Assembly (NCBI GenBank): GCA_022450595.1 | Contig: JAKUPT010000030.1 | Span: 1 to 33,489 of the forward strand | Origin: Bdellovibrionales bacterium | GTDB taxonomy: Bacteria; Bdellovibrionota; Bdellovibrionia; Bdellovibrionales; UBA1609 | Length of the DNA stretch: 33,489 nt | Direction of reading: 5' to 3' | Shown here: positions 6,391 through 20,230 of the stretch, in pieces | How positions within the stretch are numbered: the first letter of the stretch is position 1 | How the letters are laid out: each line of letters starts with the position of its first letter | The notes under the pieces: generated by a model | Told to the model about the DNA's origin: nothing | The model's database searches: none | Seen by the model: the letters and a program-made list of their open reading frames with translations, nothing else | Translations under genes and position numbers: made by a program

Positions 6391-7614
6391 ATGAGCGCTC
6401 ATATTGATCAAAGCCCAAAAAACATACTTTTACTTGAAGGCATTCATTCTATTGCTAAAGAACAATTAGATAGAGCCGGATTTAACGTCGATCTTATTTC
6501 CCATGCTTTAGCTGAAGATGAATTGATTGAAAAGATCAAAGATTATGATGTGGTTGGTATTCGCTCCAAAACACAAATTACTGAAAAAGTAGTAAAATCT
6601 TATCCGCAGTTAAGTGCAATAGGTTGTTTTTGTATTGGAACAAATCAAGTTGATTTAAAATCTACAAATCTTTACGGCGTACCTGTATTTAACGCCCCTT
6701 ACAGTAACACTCGTAGTGTCGCCGAGCTTGTGATCGCTGAGTGCGTGGCTCTGGCAAGAAAACTTGGAGACATCAACACCAATGCCCACAAAGGTGTATG
6801 GCAAAAGTCGGCTAAAGGCTCTTTTGAGATTCGCGGTAAAACTTTAGGAATTGTGGGCTATGGTCATATCGGCTCACAAGTAAGTGTCTTGGCCGAGAGC
6901 ATGGGTATGAATGTGATTTATTATGACATTATAAAAAAACTACCTCTTGGTAACGCCACGCCAATGAACTCTTTTGAAGAGCTTTTAAGGGCTTCTGACT
7001 TTGTAACCTTTCATGTGCCAGCCACCAATGAAACCAAAGATATGGTAGGTAAAACTCAATTAGATATGATGAAAAAGGACAGCTACTTAATCAACGCCAG
7101 CAGAGGTAGCGTGGTAGTTATTGAAGACTTAGCTCAAGCTTTAAAGTCTGAACACATTGCAGGGGCTGCCATTGATGTGTTTCCTAAAGAGCCAAAAAGC
7201 AATCAAGAGACTTTTCACAGTGAACTTCAAGAACTTAGCAATGTCATTCTTACTCCTCACATTGGTGGAAGCACGGAAGAAGCTCAACGTGCCATTGGTG
7301 AAGAAGTGGCCGAAAGCTTTATTCGCTTTATTCAAGTGGGATCTACTTCTGGTGCCGTGAACTTTCCAAATGTGGAGCTTCCAAGAAACGACAGTGCTAG
7401 ACGAATTATTAATGTGCACAAAAACGTCCCAGGTGTGTTAAGCCAAATTAACGGCATTGTTTCAAAAGTCGGGGCTAACATCGAAGGTCAGTACCTAAGT
7501 ACAGATCAAAATATTGGTTACCTAGTTATGGATATCAAAGGTGCTACAGCCAATGAAGTGGCCAGCCAAGTGGGTGCACTGGATTCATCTATTAAAACCA
7601 GAATGGTTTACTAA
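6391..7614 (+). CDS. serA: D-3-phosphoglycerate dehydrogenase (ACT-domain type)
   Basis: First enzyme of serine synthesis: oxidises 3-phosphoglycerate to 3-phosphohydroxypyruvate with NAD+. The 407 residues match the E. coli-type enzyme with one ACT domain. Visible are the N-terminal substrate domain with GIRSKTQIT, the NAD-binding GIVGYGHIGSQV fingerprint followed by an acidic residue (YYDI), the catalytic Arg in INASRGSVV, Glu in DVFPKEP, and the catalytic His in TPHIGGSTEEAQ. A C-terminal ACT regulatory domain begins near RIINVHKNVPGVLSQING, so serine feedback is likely. The ATG is preceded by TAAGGA. It stands alone between the divergent sigma-54 regulator and a secreted protein. E. coli SerA also reduces 2-oxoglutarate to D-2-hydroxyglutarate, relevant to the broken dehydrogenase at 9016-10392. 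Confidence 0.95.
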   Translation: MSAHIDQSPKNILLLEGIHSIAKEQLDRAGFNVDLISHALAEDELIEKIKDYDVVGIRSKTQITEKVVKSYPQLSAIGCFCIGTNQVDLKSTNLYGVPVFNAPYSNTRSVAELVIAECVALARKLGDINTNAHKGVWQKSAKGSFEIRGKTLGIVGYGHIGSQVSVLAESMGMNVIYYDIIKKLPLGNATPMNSFEELLRASDFVTFHVPATNETKDMVGKTQLDMMKKDSYLINASRGSVVVIEDLAQALKSEHIAGAAIDVFPKEPKSNQETFHSELQELSNVILTPHIGGSTEEAQRAIGEEVAESFIRFIQVGSTSGAVNFPNVELPRNDSARRIINVHKNVPGVLSQINGIVSKVGANIEGQYLSTDQNIGYLVMDIKGATANEVASQVGALDSSIKTRMVY

Positions 7615-7678: not shown

Positions 7679-9010
7679 ATGCCTCTTTTACTTTTACTAC
7701 TTATTAATAATTTTTTGGGTGCATCAGCTTTTGATTCTAAAGTTAAGTGTTTAAAAAAAATTATTTGTTCAAATTATTATATCAATGAACAAGGCCAACC
7801 TGTACCAACAAATCAAGTAAGATTAGACAATCATTTGCTATCAAATTGTGAAGCCTTTTCTAACAGTTTTAAAGTTAAAGTTTTTAAAAATAACCTTACT
7901 CTGTCTTTGCCTGATCGGCCTTCAATTTTGCTAAATTGTAATAGGGATGAGGAGCCAGAAAAGATTGACTGTGATACTAAAAAAACTTCTGTAGAAACTA
8001 TTGTTAAGACTTCATCAGAACTGTATGTTCCATATTATCAAAAAAAAGAAAATGGTGTCATAAATCATAAATGTTCAAATCGTGATGAAATATATATTGA
8101 TGTTAAATATATTAAAAAAAACCGAAGAGAATCACTAATAAATAATCTAGCAGGATTTCAACTTCGAGAAATTAAAGAGGAAACACATTCTTGTATAAGT
8201 TGTAACGACTATCATAAAATTATCGGTGTTGAAGCCTCAGATGAGAATTATTTTGTTCGTAATGGAGACGAAAACATGTGCATTAATATGCATGGGGGAT
8301 GTTTGGAAGGTCAGCACCGAGTGAGAATAAAGAAAGATAAAACTAACGATTCACAAGATAAATACGTTGGATTTGTTGGAGGACCTATTTCAAATAATGT
8401 TGGATCAACAGTTTCATATTCACCTGAAACAAGATGTGTAGAAAAATGTCCTAGTGGACAAATAAATAACGCTATTGGAGGCTGCGTGTTTGAAAGTTGT
8501 CAAAAAATTTATGACAGCGCAATGAGCCAGATAGAAAAAAATAAAGCTCTGCCGAGTAAAATAGGAAAATGTGATTCAATGACAATACAAAGTTTATGGG
8601 CAGACTATAAAAGAAAATATCAAAAAATGGCTCAAAAAAACAAAGAAGCATGTCTAAGCTATAGTGATGAGACTTTTATCCCTATGCATTATTCAATGAT
8701 AAACTTTGCTACTGTAGTGCTTCCAGTATGTGAGGTTTCAAAAGAGACACTTATCAATGATTTACCAGAAGATGTAATAGAAAATATTAGTTTTATGCCG
8801 GATGGATTTCATCAAGATAATCAACCTGAAACACTCATAGATTATTATGGTCAAAACTTACTTGAAATTTACGATGATATCTCAGGTCCCAGCTTAAAAA
8901 ATAATAATAACATACCACTACTAGAATCAAGCAAATCCTCACCAGGCAAAATAGAAGGGGGAGGTGGATTTGGCTGGCCAAGTCCGTCAAATAATCAAAA
9001 TGCAGATTGA
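7679..9010 (+). CDS. Secreted cysteine-rich protein of unknown function
   Basis: I do not recognise this 443-residue protein. It starts with a short hydrophobic signal peptide (PLLLLLLINNFLGASA) with a likely signal peptidase I site after ASA, so it should be exported. The mature part holds roughly twenty cysteines, several in close pairs (CISC; CVEKCPSGQINN then GGCVFESC), which suggests a disulphide-stabilised extracytoplasmic protein. The end is low in complexity, with a Gly-rich stretch (GGGGFGWPSPSNNQNAD). The coding sequence looks noticeably more AT-rich than the flanking serA, with many AAA, AAT and ATA codons. The ATG has only a poor ribosome-binding site (AAATAAAAGT). It ends five bases before the convergent FAD-dehydrogenase pseudogene, with no terminator visible between them. 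Confidence 0.75.
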   Translation: MPLLLLLLINNFLGASAFDSKVKCLKKIICSNYYINEQGQPVPTNQVRLDNHLLSNCEAFSNSFKVKVFKNNLTLSLPDRPSILLNCNRDEEPEKIDCDTKKTSVETIVKTSSELYVPYYQKKENGVINHKCSNRDEIYIDVKYIKKNRRESLINNLAGFQLREIKEETHSCISCNDYHKIIGVEASDENYFVRNGDENMCINMHGGCLEGQHRVRIKKDKTNDSQDKYVGFVGGPISNNVGSTVSYSPETRCVEKCPSGQINNAIGGCVFESCQKIYDSAMSQIEKNKALPSKIGKCDSMTIQSLWADYKRKYQKMAQKNKEACLSYSDETFIPMHYSMINFATVVLPVCEVSKETLINDLPEDVIENISFMPDGFHQDNQPETLIDYYGQNLLEIYDDISGPSLKNNNNIPLLESSKSSPGKIEGGGGFGWPSPSNNQNAD

Positions 9011-9015
9011 AAGAA

Positions 9016-10392
9016 TTAATTAAAAACTTTACCTGGATTTAATATCCCATCCGGATCAAAAACCTGCTTTATAGATTTCATGATCAGTATTTCTTGCTCC
9101 GAGCGAGTGAACTGTAAGTATGGTTTTTTGGTTAAGCCCACACCGTGCTCAGCGGACACACTGCCTTCATGCTTTTGAATGGTTTGAAATAAAATGTCAT
9201 TGGCTTTTTGGCACTTGGATAAAAACTCGTCTTTGTCCATATCTTTGGGCTTAAGCATATTGATATGTAAATTTCCATCACCAATGTGACCAAACCAAAC
9301 CACTTCAATGTCTGGGTATTGCTTTTTTAATATTTCATCCATTTCAGTTAAAAACTCGGGCACTTTTGAAATGCGCACTGAAACATCGTTTTTATAGGGC
9401 TGAAAAGCACTGGTGGCTTCAGAAATATCTTCTCTTAAACGCCACAGGTCTTTTGCCTGTTGAGCATTTTGGCTAACAGTTCCATCTTCCACCCAGCCTT
9501 GTTCCATGCAGTGTTCAAAAATATTCATCGACTCTTCAAGGCTTTGTTCAGAGTCGTTTTCTACTTCAACCAACACATAATAAGGGCTCTCGGTTTCAAA
9601 AGGACGAGACAGGCCTGTAGAGTCAGTCACATACTTTAAGGCAATGTCTGTGAACATTTCAAAGGCTGTAAGGCTCACTTTGCTTTTGTAGGCCTCAAAG
9701 ATATTCATCACGGCATCTAATGTGGGCACTCCAAATACAAACACAGAAAGCTCTATAGGGGGCCTAGGCACTTTCATTTCAAGCTCTGTGATAAAGCCCA
9801 GGGTTCATTCGCTTCCAATAAACAAATGTCTTAAATCATAGCCAGAGGCATTTTTAACTAAAGCATTGTTAAGTTTTAAAATCTCACCACTGCCTGTAAC
9901 CACAGTCATTCCAGCCACCCAGTCGCGAGTCAGCCCGTAACGTACAACCTTTATACCGCCGGCATTGGTGGCCACATTTCCACCAATTTGGCTGGAGCCA
10001 CGAGCTGCAAAGTCCACAGGGTAGAATTTGCCTTGCTCTTGAGCGTACTCCTGAAGTTGCTCTGTAATCACACCAGCCTCACAATGAACGGTTTCATCAA
10101 TAGAGTTATAAGAGTTGATTTTATTCATTTTTTCAAAAGAAACCACAACTTCGCCATTCGTAGCTATGGCAGCACCACTTAAGCCAGTTCTACCTCCAGA
10201 GGGGACAAGCGCAATCTTATTTTCTCTGGCCCACATAACAAGCTTTTGAGTCTCTTCTGTGGACTTAGGAAACACAATAGCCAAAGGCTTGGCTTCAATA
10301 TGCTTGGTCCAGTCTTTTCCATAAGTTTCAAGACTGTCTTTGTCGGTTTTGATTTGTTCTTTAGATAAAAAATTAATTTTGTCTAAGGCCAT
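9016..10392 (-). pseudogene. FAD-linked 2-hydroxyacid dehydrogenase (D-2-hydroxyglutarate / D-lactate / glycolate type), interrupted by in-frame TGA
   Basis: The gene reads as one frame of 458 codons except for TGA at 9805-9807 (codon 196). The N-terminal piece (9808-10392) carries the FAD-binding PCMH domain: PSGGRTGLSGAA, GSSQIGGNVATNAGG, then RHLFIGSE followed by the stop. Reading resumes without frame change as TLGFITELEM, and the family expects Gly between these (GSEGTLG), so a single GGA-to-TGA change explains it. The C-terminal piece (9016-9777 from an internal ATG) has the FAD-oxidase C domain with FGHIGDGNLHIN and GSVSAEHGVGLTKKPY, signatures of the D-2-hydroxyglutarate/D-lactate dehydrogenase group. 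The break splits the FAD domain, so the fragments are unlikely to work alone. Start ATG at 10392 has a GGGAG site. The rest of the gene looks intact, so the lesion is recent, or a sequencing error. Confidence 0.88.
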
Positions 10393-10516
10393 TTTTATGC
10401 TCCCGTTAAAGCTAAATTCTAACTCCTATAAAAAGCCCGTCAACATAAGTCTTTAAAACTAAAAAAAGCACTTTGATTTGTTGAATAATTTACTGTTTAG
10501 ACCCCACTTTGGTCAC

Positions 10517-13901: not shown

Positions 13902-15839
13902 GTGGCCAATCAGATAAAGTCCAGCAGTACTGCCGAATATTTTGCTAAAAACTTACAACAAGTTGGGTTTTCCTCTCCTTTAAAGGCGGTTTTAACCACC
14001 TTAAAAGAAGCTGTAGATAACTCTCTTGATGCTTGTGAAGAGCATGACATTCTTCCGGAACTCATTATTGAAATCAATAAAAAGGGCAAAGGCTCTAGTC
14101 GTTCTTCAGACCTAGTAGAAATTATTGTTGAGGACAACGGTCCCGGGCTTGAAGTGGATATGGTCGGAAAAGTTTTTGGTGAGTACTTAGCCTCATCAAA
14201 ATTTGGCCGTGGTCAATGTTCTAGAGGGCAGCAAGGTATTGGTATATCAGCTGCCACCACATGGGCCCAGCTCACCAACGCCAGTGGTGTGGTTGTCACC
14301 ACCAAAACAAAAAAAATGCGAAAAGCCGTTCGAGCCAAGGTGGATGTGGACATTAAAAGCAACAGAGGTGTGATCAAACAAAAAGAAACCTTTGATTGGC
14401 ACAAAGACCACGGTGTTCGTTGCGAGTTTATTATCGATGGACGTATTCAATTAAATGGAGACGGTGGGATTTTAACTTACTTAGAGGGAACAACACTTGT
14501 GAACCCTCATTTAACTTTAAAATATAAACTACTTGAAAACGACTGGGTTGAAATCCCACGAGTGAGTGATGAAGTGCCAAAGGTACCAAAGCCCACACTT
14601 CCTCATCCGCACACAATGAAACTGGGCGAGTTTATGACCCATGCCCATATATACGGAAAGATCTCTTTAGACAAATTTCTTAAAAAGGGTTTTTCAAGAG
14701 TTACAGACAACTCCATTAAAGACTTTGTAAAGCGTGGAATGCCGCAGGCTTATTTGAAAAAGAATTTAAATAAAATGAGCGAAAAAGAGTTTAAAAATGT
14801 CTTCTCAGCCATTCAAGACTCGGAACTGCCCAACCCATCTACCAAGTCCGTATTAACTGTTGGAGAAGAGGCTTTATCGAAAAGTGTGCTTCGTATTGGT
14901 GTGGTGGACTTTTTTAGTGTGGTGACAAGAAAACCTAAAATTTGTGACTACAAGCCCATTGTTGTTGAGGTGGCTATCGCCAGATTTTTAGACCGCGGAA
15001 GAGACGCTGAAGATAAGCAAATCCAGCTATTACGTTTTGCCAATCGTGTGCCTCTACAGTTTGATAAAGCCGGTTGTGCTATCACAAAAGCCGTAGAGTC
15101 CATCAACTGGCGCAGTTACGGTTTGGCACAGTCAAAAAACTCACTTCCTATTGGCCCATATATTATAGCGGTGGCTGTCACTTCTCCGTTTATTAAATTT
15201 AAAAACGCATCTAAAGAGACCATTGATGCTAGTGATGAGTTAGTAGAAGAGCTAAGACGTGCTTTAATGCAGGCCGGGCAAAAGCTAGGTCGTCACATTA
15301 AGCGAGAAGAAAAGGCTGCAGACCTTGAAAGAAAGCTTGCTCATATTGAAAAGTTTGGCCCCATACTGGTGGAAGGCTTAGCTAAAATCATCGGAGCTGG
15401 TGAGCAAAGAAAAAAGCGTGCTGAAGAAGGTTTAAAAAAGCTTCTGGGGCGTGACACTTCCGCGGCAGAAGATGATCTTGCTGCCGCAGAGCAGAGACTG
15501 AAAAAACAACGTGAGATGCAAAGGCAGAGACTTGGCTTTGATGCACGTCAGTTGATTGAAGAAAGCAGTGTGAATGAAGAAGTCAGTGTGAATGCTGGTG
15601 ATGAGCCCGAAGAGGCTCCAACTAGTAAAAAAGCCACTTCTAAAAAGGCAACCAGTAAAAAAACAACTGCTAAGAAAAGCACAAAAAAAGCGACTAAAAA
15701 AGTAGCCAAAAAAGCCACTAAGAAAAAGACAGTGGCCAAAAAGGCCACAAAAAAGTCGGCAGCAAAAGCTAAGAAAAAATCGAATAAAAAAGTAACTAAG
15801 AAAAAAGCGACCAAAAAAGCTGCAAGAGCCAAAAAATAA
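13902..15839 (+). CDS. top6B: DNA topoisomerase VI subunit B with lysine-rich C-terminal tail
   Basis: ATPase subunit of a type IIB topoisomerase, which passes one duplex through another with ATP. The GHKL ATPase domain has the N box KEAVDNSLDA (36-45), DNGPG (78-82) and the topo VI-typical RGQQGIGIS (108-116). An H2TH-like region (FSRVTDNSIKDFVKR) and a transducer domain with the family pattern LLRFANRVPLQFDKAG follow. Residues about 574-645 form an acid-free tail, nearly half lysine, with K-K-A-T/S repeats like histone H1 C-termini. Start is GTG at 13902; AAAGGA lies about 10 bases ahead and the only near ATG is out of frame. The A subunit follows after 12 bases. Topoisomerase VI is chiefly archaeal and plant; bacterial copies are sporadic. 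Confidence 0.93.
   Translation: MANQIKSSSTAEYFAKNLQQVGFSSPLKAVLTTLKEAVDNSLDACEEHDILPELIIEINKKGKGSSRSSDLVEIIVEDNGPGLEVDMVGKVFGEYLASSKFGRGQCSRGQQGIGISAATTWAQLTNASGVVVTTKTKKMRKAVRAKVDVDIKSNRGVIKQKETFDWHKDHGVRCEFIIDGRIQLNGDGGILTYLEGTTLVNPHLTLKYKLLENDWVEIPRVSDEVPKVPKPTLPHPHTMKLGEFMTHAHIYGKISLDKFLKKGFSRVTDNSIKDFVKRGMPQAYLKKNLNKMSEKEFKNVFSAIQDSELPNPSTKSVLTVGEEALSKSVLRIGVVDFFSVVTRKPKICDYKPIVVEVAIARFLDRGRDAEDKQIQLLRFANRVPLQFDKAGCAITKAVESINWRSYGLAQSKNSLPIGPYIIAVAVTSPFIKFKNASKETIDASDELVEELRRALMQAGQKLGRHIKREEKAADLERKLAHIEKFGPILVEGLAKIIGAGEQRKKRAEEGLKKLLGRDTSAAEDDLAAAEQRLKKQREMQRQRLGFDARQLIEESSVNEEVSVNAGDEPEEAPTSKKATSKKATSKKTTAKKSTKKATKKVAKKATKKKTVAKKATKKSAAKAKKKSNKKVTKKKATKKAARAKK
15621..15836 (+). repeat. 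Imperfect repeats encoding the lysine/alanine/threonine tail of topoisomerase VI B
   Basis: This 216-base stretch encodes 72 residues of short degenerate units such as TSKKA, TSKKA, TSKKT, TAKKS, TKKAT and KKVAK. I count 34 lysines and no acidic residue. It gives A-rich DNA (AAAAAAGC/AAAAAGGC repeats) and a spurious long hydrophobic frame on the other strand. Such a sequence is prone to slippage and length variation. Confidence 0.8.
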
Positions 15840-15851
15840 AGGGTAGTAACT

Positions 15852-17018
15852 ATGGCATTGATGAAAGTTCGAAAACTGAAAAAAGACATACCTAAAGAAG
15901 CAAAAGCTCTTTGTGAGCAGATGCTAAAAGATCTTGAAAGAGCAAAGCGTCCCACGCTAGAAGCGATAAAATGCTCTTTGGACAATTCATTTTATAATCC
16001 AAAAGTGGGCTACTTAACTCCGGGTGATAAAAGAGTTAGAACAGAGCTTAATGTGTCTTCTGTTCAAAAGCTCTCACGTACTATTTTTATGCTCGATATT
16101 CTTTTAGAGAACATTTACAACGGTTCAGTAAATACCAAGCGTGAGCTTTACTATATGGCAAAAGGTTTAGTGAAATCCACTAGGGGGATAAACTTAAAAC
16201 CTCTTGATTTTGATGATCAGCCTGAAAGTGATGCCATTATTGATTTTATTTGCGATATGTTGATGGTTTACCGTGAAGAAGTGAACTGTTTTGCCAACGA
16301 TCGTGGTGGTCAAACTTACTCTCAGTGTTTAAGTGTGACAGAAACTTTGCCGGATGGCTCTAAAACCACTGTGGATTTAAAAAACTTAGGTACCGCTCCT
16401 TTTCAACCAAAAAACCGTCCACAAGCCTTAAAGCTTAAGGCTACTAAAAAGATTGAATTTTGCTTAGTTGTGGAATCAGAAGGTACCGCCAACACATTGG
16501 TATCAAATGGCTTTACTAGAAGAAACAACTGCATCGTTATGGGTGCTCAAGGGGTGCCTTCAAACGCTGTAAGAGCTTGGTGTAAAACCATTCAAGATCA
16601 ACTTAAAGTGCCTATATTCTTTTTTGGTGACCTGGATGCTTACACCTTACAAAACATTTACAGAACCTTGAAAGCCGGATCTGCAGCCAGTCTTGTCAGA
16701 AACTCCGACTTCTCAGCTCCTGAGGTAAGATTTTTAGGAGTGCTCCCTGAAGATGTGAAAAAATATGATCTTCACTGTTATACTGTGTCTGAGAAAAACG
16801 CCAGTGATGCAAGATCCCTTAAAAAAGCCCGTGATGTTTTACAAAACGATCCATTTTTTAAAGACAAAAAAAATAAAGACGTGGCAAAGATTCTCAACTG
16901 GTTGATTAAACATAAAGTCCGTTGCGAACAGCAGGCTTTTTTCTCAGTGAATCCTAAAGATCCACTTATGACAGAAAAAATTATTTTAGATAAAATTAGA
17001 TCTGGTTCTTATGTTTAA
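15852..17018 (+). CDS. top6A: DNA topoisomerase VI subunit A (Spo11-like)
   Basis: DNA-cleaving subunit of the type IIB topoisomerase, a homologue of the meiotic nuclease Spo11. The 388 residues hold a winged-helix domain with the catalytic tyrosine motif TKRELYYMAKG (Tyr101 most likely nucleophile) and a Toprim domain with VVESEG (Glu208) and FFFGDLDAYTLQNIY (Asp260, Asp262). The usual family text after the Toprim aspartates is D-x-DPYG, here DLDAYT, so the segment following the metal ligands has diverged although both aspartates remain. PSNAVRAW matches the family P-S-x-x-x-R motif. It lies 12 bases after the B subunit gene with GGGTAG ahead of ATG, so the two are co-translated. The stop overlaps that of the convergent lipoprotein gene by four bases. 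Confidence 0.92.
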   Translation: MALMKVRKLKKDIPKEAKALCEQMLKDLERAKRPTLEAIKCSLDNSFYNPKVGYLTPGDKRVRTELNVSSVQKLSRTIFMLDILLENIYNGSVNTKRELYYMAKGLVKSTRGINLKPLDFDDQPESDAIIDFICDMLMVYREEVNCFANDRGGQTYSQCLSVTETLPDGSKTTVDLKNLGTAPFQPKNRPQALKLKATKKIEFCLVVESEGTANTLVSNGFTRRNNCIVMGAQGVPSNAVRAWCKTIQDQLKVPIFFFGDLDAYTLQNIYRTLKAGSAASLVRNSDFSAPEVRFLGVLPEDVKKYDLHCYTVSEKNASDARSLKKARDVLQNDPFFKDKKNKDVAKILNWLIKHKVRCEQQAFFSVNPKDPLMTEKIILDKIRSGSYV

Positions 17019-20000
17019 AGCTTCCCATTATAAGGGTGAGCATAAACTTCTACATTAATTACATTTGTAGATGAGCTAAAGTTACATTTTTTATAATCAT
17101 TGTCTGTTCCCATATGTCCTTGGTAGGCTCCAAGGTTAGGCGACAGTATACATGTTTCATTAGATTCACATAGACCATTATTGTTTCCAATAAAGTCAGT
17201 ATTTATTTCGGCGGCATTAGACAGATAATATTCACTAACACCAACTGAGTTTTTGTATATTGCTTCTTTATTTAGAGCGCTACTACAATCTGGATTATTA
17301 AATTTCCCAGTACTTGGGGCGTAGTTATTATTTGAGTGGGCAACTCCTGAAAAACTATAAGATGAATCAAGGATATTAGAGTTACTTCTATTTAAAGTAA
17401 TACTATACAGAGTACATGTTTGGCTTGTAGAGCAACTAGATGTACTATATAGCCAATAATCATAAATGCTTGTATTAATCCAGTCAGAGGTAGTTACAGT
17501 TGTTGTTGTTGATGGCGAATAGAAATCTCCAAAGGTAAAAGTATTTGTTTTTCTAGGATAAGAGTCGCAGGTGTCATAGTCTCCGCCACTATTTTGTAAG
17601 TTACAAACAGGATTTGTGTCACTATCTAAATAACTATTGTAAAACTCTGGATTGGGACGCACTTCGCTACCAGACGTAACATTATGTTTTAAGTATATAT
17701 TATTTAAGTGATTACTAAACCCTAATTGAGAAAAACTAAAATGAGAGTTTGAGTCTTCATAAGAAACAAATACAGCATCATTATCAGGAATGCCATCTAC
17801 AGTTAAATCTGATCCTGTGGAGTATATTTGGTTAACTGTCAAATTCTGAAGCGTTGAATTTAAATAAATAGACTCAAGTGAGTTGTTACTAAAACTAACA
17901 TGGTTGACATTTGTTGAAGCCAAATTAATATTTGAGTTTGTTACCCTTATAGGAGAGGATAATTCTCTAATACCTACAATAATTGATTGAGAAATGGAAA
18001 TTTTTGGGGCGATATTGATGTTGGTAGTGTCAAAGCTCACACCACCATATGAGTTAGAAAACTTTGAATTTGTTATATATAAATTTTTAGTATCTGAAGC
18101 CAATAAAGCCCCTGAGCTTTGAATATTCATTATTTTAGTGTTGCTTATGTTTATATAATTGGAATTTGAGATTAATAACCCCTTTGATGAACTGTGAATA
18201 TTCGAGTTAGATAGAGTAATATTTTTTGAGTTACTAATATTTAAAGGAGTGTATGTTGAGTTGGAATTGCTAACATTCACCTCTAAAAATAAATTTCTAC
18301 TATTGTTGACTGTTATATTTGAACCTCTCGAGGATGTGTCAAAATTAAAACGATTCTGAATAATACTTGCATTTGAAATACCATCTAATATTAAAGGCCC
18401 AGTATGTGATCCTCCAATGATTATTATGTTTTGGTCTTTTTCAGATCCTAAGGTGGTTTGAGAAGTGCTATTTAATACATTTACTGGATTTGTCCATAGT
18501 GTTTGTGCATTTAGGCTATTACTTTTAACCGTTCCATAATTTTTATCTTTTAACAATACATTAAAACCAACAAAAGATGATAAGTTTATTAGGCTATTAA
18601 GTTTAAAATTATTTTTTACACCTACGATTTGAAAGTCAGCAAAATTTGCTCTTTGCACACACTTCCATAAAAATGGAACAACATTGTTATCACTAGATTT
18701 TTCAATCTCAACTTTATAATCATTACAACTAGTGGCGCCAGGTATTTCGATATGCCACAACAGCCCAGCGTTTACACATTCGTTAGGGGAGTTTATTGAG
18801 TTAATAATTGTGTCCGTGCATTCATTTGTAAAATTAGTTAAGTCATGAGGGTTAGCCATTGTATTAGAAATGTAATATCCCCATTTTTTACTATTCTCAT
18901 CTCGTTTTAATAGTTGAATGTAAGACCATTGATCATAGTCAACAGGTGTTGAGCTGTTTGGAAAGGCCTGAGAATCATAACTCCATACTCTAACATAGTA
19001 TTTTTTGTTTTTTGCTGTAGAAAATTGAATTTGGTTTTGACTATTGATGTTTGTAAGTGCGGCATTATTAAAATCATTCTTAAGGTTGGCAGAGTTATCA
19101 CTATAATCTACGTAGTAAGTTATAGCAGGATTAAGCCCTGAAAGAGTTAATGTGTCACTCCCAGATATTCGGTTTAAAGTTAAGCCTGCAGGTGGAGTGG
19201 GTTGATCTTTCATCGTAAAAACATCATTAATTACATATCTATTCCATTGCGCTGGAGAATTATTGTTATAAGCACATACTACAATATTATATCCAGTGTC
19301 TGAGGGTAAGCCAGGGATGGTATAGTCAGGCCCTGTAAGAGATCCTGTCCCACTACAAATTGGTAAAGGATCTGTTGTCAGAGCATGAAGAACTTCAAAG
19401 TTAGTCGCACCATCAGCTGATATACCAGATACTAAAATACTAGTGTTGTTGGGGCTTGATGCCATCGCTGTTAAAGAAAGCGGTTTTTTGTAGTAAACCA
19501 TAGAAGCTGGGCTACTTTGGTTTCCTGAATTTTTTCCACAAATAGAAATAGTAATGTCATTGCTGTTTAAATCAAATGAGGTGGTGCCATTTCCAGAAGA
19601 AATATTAGTTGTGGCATTTGACTGTGCAGGCACTTCAAAACCAGAGCTACAGTCAGGAGTGACGTTGCCATTTTTGATGCTAATCACTACCTCATCATTT
19701 CCATGATCATCGGGTAGAGCCCATTTAATATCAATTTCTGTGTTGCTAATATAATTGATTGAAGAAATAGTTGGCACAGTGGCCTGAGGAGTCGTTGGGG
19801 GCGGTGAAGTGTTGTTGTATATAACATCAATCTGTTGGGGCTGTGATTCGCCAGTTAGAGACACCGCTCTTAACCAAATTGATTTAGTTTTATAATCATT
19901 AAGAGCAAAGCCGAGCTCTTCGAGCTTAAAACTGATTTTAAAGTTTTCATCACTGCAATCACCATCACTGTTAGATAGTAGAGTTGTCAGTGTGTTCCAG

Positions 20001-20230
20001 TCTTGACCTTCAAGTTTAACTTGTAAGTTTTTAATGTCCGAAGAGCACTGGCCGGAGATTTCATAGGGTGTTGAAAAATGTGAGTCGTTCACCTCATAAG
20101 GGCCTTGGCCAGATAACTTTGGGCTCAAGGATGAGAACCCAATAAGGCTGATCACAGGATCTTGCTTTGAGCAGCCAAGTGTGAATGTTAAGGCCAAAAC
20201 TGTTAGCCACAGTTTGTGTACGTACGACAT
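17015..20230 (-). CDS. Large lipoprotein with Fn3-like and right-handed beta-helix regions
   Basis: A 1071-residue predicted surface or periplasmic lipoprotein. The N-terminus MSYVHKLWLTVLALTFTLGC is a signal peptide ending in a lipobox, with acylated Cys20. Several Fn3-like beta-sandwich segments follow (for example PTISSINYISNTEIDIKWAL and PTPPAGLTLNRISG). About 600-750 form Asn/Ser-rich parallel beta-helix (PbH1) turns such as LNISNSKNITLSNSNIHSSS and ISNTKIMNIQSS. The C-terminus includes LGAYQGHMG, like the D-I-G-A-Y-E element found at the end of beta-helix surface proteins. Several cysteines are paired in the C-terminal third. Function is unknown; adhesion or polysaccharide binding are typical of the fold, but no catalytic site is evident. 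Codon use is AT-rich. It is a single-gene unit, convergent with top6A. Confidence 0.85.
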   Translation of the reverse strand: MSYVHKLWLTVLALTFTLGCSKQDPVISLIGFSSLSPKLSGQGPYEVNDSHFSTPYEISGQCSSDIKNLQVKLEGQDWNTLTTLLSNSDGDCSDENFKISFKLEELGFALNDYKTKSIWLRAVSLTGESQPQQIDVIYNNTSPPPTTPQATVPTISSINYISNTEIDIKWALPDDHGNDEVVISIKNGNVTPDCSSGFEVPAQSNATTNISSGNGTTSFDLNSNDITISICGKNSGNQSSPASMVYYKKPLSLTAMASSPNNTSILVSGISADGATNFEVLHALTTDPLPICSGTGSLTGPDYTIPGLPSDTGYNIVVCAYNNNSPAQWNRYVINDVFTMKDQPTPPAGLTLNRISGSDTLTLSGLNPAITYYVDYSDNSANLKNDFNNAALTNINSQNQIQFSTAKNKKYYVRVWSYDSQAFPNSSTPVDYDQWSYIQLLKRDENSKKWGYYISNTMANPHDLTNFTNECTDTIINSINSPNECVNAGLLWHIEIPGATSCNDYKVEIEKSSDNNVVPFLWKCVQRANFADFQIVGVKNNFKLNSLINLSSFVGFNVLLKDKNYGTVKSNSLNAQTLWTNPVNVLNSTSQTTLGSEKDQNIIIIGGSHTGPLILDGISNASIIQNRFNFDTSSRGSNITVNNSRNLFLEVNVSNSNSTYTPLNISNSKNITLSNSNIHSSSKGLLISNSNYINISNTKIMNIQSSGALLASDTKNLYITNSKFSNSYGGVSFDTTNINIAPKISISQSIIVGIRELSSPIRVTNSNINLASTNVNHVSFSNNSLESIYLNSTLQNLTVNQIYSTGSDLTVDGIPDNDAVFVSYEDSNSHFSFSQLGFSNHLNNIYLKHNVTSGSEVRPNPEFYNSYLDSDTNPVCNLQNSGGDYDTCDSYPRKTNTFTFGDFYSPSTTTTVTTSDWINTSIYDYWLYSTSSCSTSQTCTLYSITLNRSNSNILDSSYSFSGVAHSNNNYAPSTGKFNNPDCSSALNKEAIYKNSVGVSEYYLSNAAEINTDFIGNNNGLCESNETCILSPNLGAYQGHMGTDNDYKKCNFSSSTNVINVEVYAHPYNGKL

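Follow-up and report, generated by a model that had tools for sequence, protein, structure and literature searches.

What does a lone stop codon signify when it interrupts a gene that is otherwise intact, and does the organism in fact possess this stop? The question arises in the window considered here, i.e. in the whole analysed stretch of 33,489 nucleotides from contig JAKUPT010000030.1 of a Bdellovibrionales bacterium. The initial annotation, made from the letters alone, described an FAD-linked 2-hydroxyacid dehydrogenase whose frame is unbroken from 10392 to 9016 except for one TGA. Translation of the complementary strand confirmed this: the only internal stop is at codon 196 (9807–9805), and its surroundings, LFIGSE-stop-TLGFITE, agree with the earlier reading. 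The open stretches between stops comprise 206 and 262 codons on the two sides of the TGA. Since both are long and coding-like, and the whole translation matches FAD_binding_4 together with FAD-oxidase_C, the locus is one gene with one stop rather than a chance pairing of two open reading frames. The site lies in the middle of the 33.5 kb contig and not at its end. Coordinates of the relevant features are collected in Table 1.

Table 1. Features of the window discussed in the text (positions of the whole stretch)
Feature	Position	Strand	Basis or remark
D2HGDH-like FAD-linked dehydrogenase gene with one internal stop	9016..10392	-	458 codons plus TAA; translation, domains, residues
In-frame TGA (codon 196) in place of the second Gly of GSEGTLG; followed by A	9805..9807	-	translation, alignment
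195-aa product if TGA terminates; contains the FAD_binding_4 match (36-174)	9805..10392	-	
3' remnant ORF from its first ATG, 253 aa; contains the FAD-oxidase_C match (217-456)	9016..9777	-	
serA, phosphoglycerate dehydrogenase	6391..7614	+	PRK11790, 610 bits, cut-off 404; convergent neighbour, one ORF between
443-aa ORF of no known family (without Pfam match)	7679..9010	+	located between the gene and serA; its end and the gene end are five bases apart
Promoter-like TTGACG-16-TAGAAT, 5' of the gene	10416..10443	-	weak: 4 found in the region vs 5.2 expected by chance

With the stop read as glycine, the two domains scored 133.9 bits (FAD_binding_4) and 195.8 bits (FAD-oxidase_C). The closest solved structures were human D-2-hydroxyglutarate dehydrogenase (D2HGDH, PDB 6lpn) and the putative oxidoreductase 3pm9, which, listed in that order, aligned with residues 14–456 and 16–456 of the gene product at E values of 6.2e-82 and 1.8e-91. 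Seven of the nine active-site residues listed for the human enzyme are identical here. They include the zinc ligands and catalytic histidine (H434, H441, E475 and H476, kept as H369, H376, E415 and H416), as well as the equivalents of Lys401 (K334, lysine in 30/30 relatives) and Asn443 (N378, asparagine in 27/30). According to the available part of PMC7801405, Lys401 and Asn443 set D2HGDH apart from GlcD and D-lactate dehydrogenases, where these residues differ, and their role is to bind the substrate's second carboxylate. The two departures, Phe for human Tyr432 and Ser for Thr390, are common to most relatives (Phe in 30/30, Ser in 19/30). Assignment to the GlcD subunit of glycolate oxidase (TIGR00387) was rejected, because the score of 310.1 bits falls far under the curated cut-off of 567.9. 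In the accessible text of PMC9504171, SerA makes D-2-hydroxyglutarate, D2HGDH turns this product back, and the electron transfer flavoprotein (ETF) serves as electron carrier; two ETF subunit matches were found in the genome. The family call of the initial annotation is right. Since the substrate-binding residues are kept, the GlcD score is far below its cut-off, serA is a neighbour and ETF is available, we infer that it can be narrowed: judging from sequence, the gene looks like an FAD-dependent D2HGDH working with SerA.

A serA gene was found in 16 of the 33 records searched around D2HGDH homologues, which neither counts independent cases nor tells how often serA is absent (most flanks were only 1.5 kb long, L003 and L031 seem to be the same locus, and genome G007 contributes L051 as its second contig). 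A similar arrangement occurs on a contig of Methylobacillus arboreus (L032, 4491–7356), where a D2HGDH gene 57% identical to ours is accompanied by a convergent serA (53%). In the tree this D2HGDH adjoins two genes that belong to the window's order (family f10), and horizontal transfer is possible in its case. Elsewhere the window contains a complete gene pair for DNA topoisomerase VI (13902–17018, plus strand; subunit B identified by PRK04184 of NCBIfam with 517 bits, subunit A by TOP6A-Spo11 Toprim). Topoisomerase VI is more familiar from archaea than from bacteria. An open reading frame of 1071 aa without Pfam match occupies positions 17015–20230 of the minus strand.

How isolated the stop is can be judged from an alignment with 31 homologue rows. 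Glycine, which the initial annotation expected at codon 196, is present in all of them, encoded by GGA (14), GGC (11), GGT (4) or GGG (2). Among the other rows 92 columns are invariant, and the gene keeps 91 of them with codon 196 as the sole exception. One row (L031) resembles a second copy of L003, and without this likely duplicate the other invariant columns were again kept in 91 of 91 cases. Both halves are as well conserved as had been claimed. With no further stops, no indels and no lost conserved residues, an old pseudogene, the outcome that further decay would have indicated, was rejected. In a simple neutral model visible damage has a probability of 50% once divergence reaches 0.28% and of 95% at 1.2%, so that the gene is unlikely to have drifted without selection for more than about 1.2% of divergence. 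At 0.19 the end branch of the gene is shorter than the median for the 31 rows (0.23), which gives no indication of fast evolution. From the kept invariant columns, the neutral model and the ordinary end branch, we conclude that selection maintained the gene until very recently, or continues to do so. Ka/Ks ratios were estimated for the two halves, with synonymous sites saturated in most comparisons, and the halves are therefore not datable apart.

TGA is an ordinary stop in this organism. Its genome has a release factor 2 match over the cut-off with an unbroken reading frame; in a weaker release-factor match the flagged TAG precedes the likely start of the gene. The autoregulatory frameshift site of prfB is well known, but it seems to be absent here, since no internal TGA was seen near the start of the RF2 frame (L073, G000:C67). 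Long sampled frames, 218 in total, end with TAA (161), TGA (29) or TAG (28). None of the 33 tRNAs found by Rfam has the anticodon UCA, and selB gave no match over the cut-off in the genome. tRNA-Trp(CCA) looks normal, having a 5-bp anticodon stem, A9 and G24 (positions counted by hand), the features that the available part of PMC13092985 sets against UGA-reading variants of this tRNA. A survey of 528,593 bases in 39 sampled stretches, the window among them, was directed at in-frame stops with 60 or more open codons on each side and registered 79 such stops between two open frames. In 24 cases both sides passed the coding score. Judged by eye from a start codon closely after the stop, 23 of the 24 resemble gene boundaries (full inspection covered the window site and four more of the 24), and the TGA of the window is the one that falls inside a gene; no other coding frame split in its middle was found in these stretches. 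Given the intact RF2, the tRNAs found, the outcome for selB and the survey of frames, reassignment of UGA to glycine or tryptophan and its use for selenocysteine were rejected. So was a structured read-through element: the window has no match to Rfam families, and the 100 bases 3' of the stop fold no better than shuffled sequences (z = -0.14).

The genome itself is a draft, MAG-like assembly of 3,063,175 bases in 156 contigs, 97.19% complete with 2.19% contamination. A search for the second intact paralogue suggested by the initial annotation returned a single match, which is the gene with TGA. A scan of genome contigs gave only two loci, with no second strain among them. Relatives were searched in a set of 58 genomes and then in 140 genomes of the order; the sets overlap and both include the genome under study. 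D2HGDH matches at E<=1e-60 were obtained in 133 of the 140 and were absent from 7; among the 102 genomes with completeness of 90% or more and contamination of no more than 5%, two had no match. Even family members with genomes of 1.2–1.3 Mb (G016 and G030) retain the gene. Only one other genome of the 140, G007, also shows a stop in D2HGDH, and its gene is the most similar one found (73% identity). There the single in-frame TGA replaces a Trp codon (VV-stop-FGHIGDG; G007:C8:42-44, locus L052), 42–44 bases from the contig end, the remainder of the gene is at the end of another contig, and GSEGTLG is retained. Since the codons differ and the G007 site is at a contig end, a TGA common to the two genomes was rejected: these are different events, and for G007 the simplest reading, given this position, is an assembly fault. 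An in-frame TGA in the most similar gene as well would nevertheless be an odd coincidence if both were random. A sample of 306,015 bases from G007 yielded nine high-scoring same-frame pairs among those listed, all separated by TAA and resembling gene boundaries.

Taken together, these data are best accounted for by an ordinary D2HGDH gene with either a very recent nonsense mutation or a consensus error, a reading to which we assign a probability of about 90%. Both of these readings from the initial annotation fit everything found, while its third one, a stop that is read through, obtained no positive support. In that case a near-cognate tRNA would decode UGA at some frequency and full-length enzyme would be made. 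The strong conservation seen before and after the stop favours this, and purifying selection with full conservation would be expected of a read-through gene just as much as of a recent mutation or an error. Belinky et al. 2021 (PMC7918605), in its available part, argues that read-through is frequent where an isolated in-frame stop interrupts an otherwise conserved bacterial gene, and the different TGA of G007, at a Trp codon of the same gene, points the same way. However, near-cognate reading of UGA inserts tryptophan according to the same text, and it would land where every aligned row has glycine. Moreover, tRNA-Trp is unlike the UGA-reading variants, neither an Rfam element nor a downstream fold was detected, and codon 196 is never TGA in the aligned relatives. 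Read-through is therefore improbable, and more improbable still is its extended version, where a small bacterial group including this genome and G007 would make D2HGDH at a low level through UGA read-through at different codons, the rest of the gene being under selection. Gene fission, with chains of 195 aa and 253 aa jointly forming the enzyme, might be suggested by the location of the stop between two Pfam domains and by an ATG nine codons 3' of it. Restart at this ATG, however, loses the nine residues after the stop, including TLG of the motif; a strong ribosome-binding site before it was not found by eye; and splits in relatives are all explained by contig ends (the D2HGDH pieces of G087 end there, and the second piece of G110 comes within seven bases of one), so that a split gene is not common to relatives. 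We consider fission very unlikely. As for a changed genetic code (UGA read as glycine, as in table 25, or in another sense meaning) or selenocysteine, the glycine position of the TGA speaks in its favour, while the intact RF2, the long frames ended by TGA, the lack of a UCA tRNA among the 33 found and of a selB match over the cut-off, the absence of any other sense-like TGA in the sample and, for selenocysteine, homologues with Gly rather than Cys at codon 196 make it hardly credible at all.

Between mutation and error the balance is about equal, each falling somewhat short of an even chance. An error of consensus, assembly or sequencing, or a minority variant picked by the metagenome assembly, would mean that the cells carry the glycine codon. 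The fragmented, slightly contaminated draft is compatible with it, the affected gene is a sole copy whose remainder is fully intact, and an error or a minority variant is favoured by the wide retention of the gene, in small genomes too. A random single substitution in this gene creates a stop in about 4% of cases, and a few dozen base errors per genome would then give about one such case. On the other hand, the site is mid-contig, away from ends, and the sampled bases contain no other mid-gene stop, which argues that such errors are not common in this assembly. A true and very recent nonsense mutation would mean that the strain has lost D2HGDH and that D-2-hydroxyglutarate made by SerA accumulates or leaves the cell. 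The isolated, recent appearance of the stop agrees with this, and absence of the gene from a few relatives, good genomes among them, suggests that its loss is tolerable. Yet its retention at 1.2–1.3 Mb implies that loss should usually be selected against, and the TGA of G007 weighs as a coincidence against mutation and error alike.

According to the mutation-or-error reading, the gene would thus be an ordinary FAD-dependent D2HGDH with a single glycine codon that reads TGA in the assembly. Enzymes of this kind oxidise D-2-hydroxyglutarate, which phosphoglycerate dehydrogenases of the SerA type produce from 2-oxoglutarate. Because TGA is an ordinary stop here, the deposited message would give only the 195-residue N-terminal piece; lacking the substrate- and zinc-binding half, this piece would presumably form no enzyme, and the change would be so recent that nothing else has decayed. 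Most likely the locus is a caution: in a draft assembly a single base can be enough to make a conserved metabolic gene with no second copy look like a pseudogene, and D-2-hydroxyglutarate recycling would then be missing, perhaps wrongly, from the annotation or the metabolic model. Should the stop be read through, it would represent a natural tuning of the serine pathway by stop-codon leakage. A literature search on stops in assembled genomes in general found nothing.

The D2HGDH family, its link with SerA and isolated nonsense codons are all already known. With the isolated in-frame stops described in the available part of PMC7918605, the locus differs in that a single genome has the stop, so that the comparison over related genomes is not repeatable here, but it shares one stop, conserved flanks and no further decay. 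It also resembles the SerA-coupled D2HGDH of the Pseudomonas stutzeri type, as presented in the available part of PMC9504171, in its similar size, FAD dependence as judged by domain, neighbouring serA and the presence of ETF subunits. The likeness is one of size, domains and neighbours rather than of direct sequence comparison, and what distinguishes the gene described here from the Pseudomonas stutzeri enzyme is TGA at codon 196.
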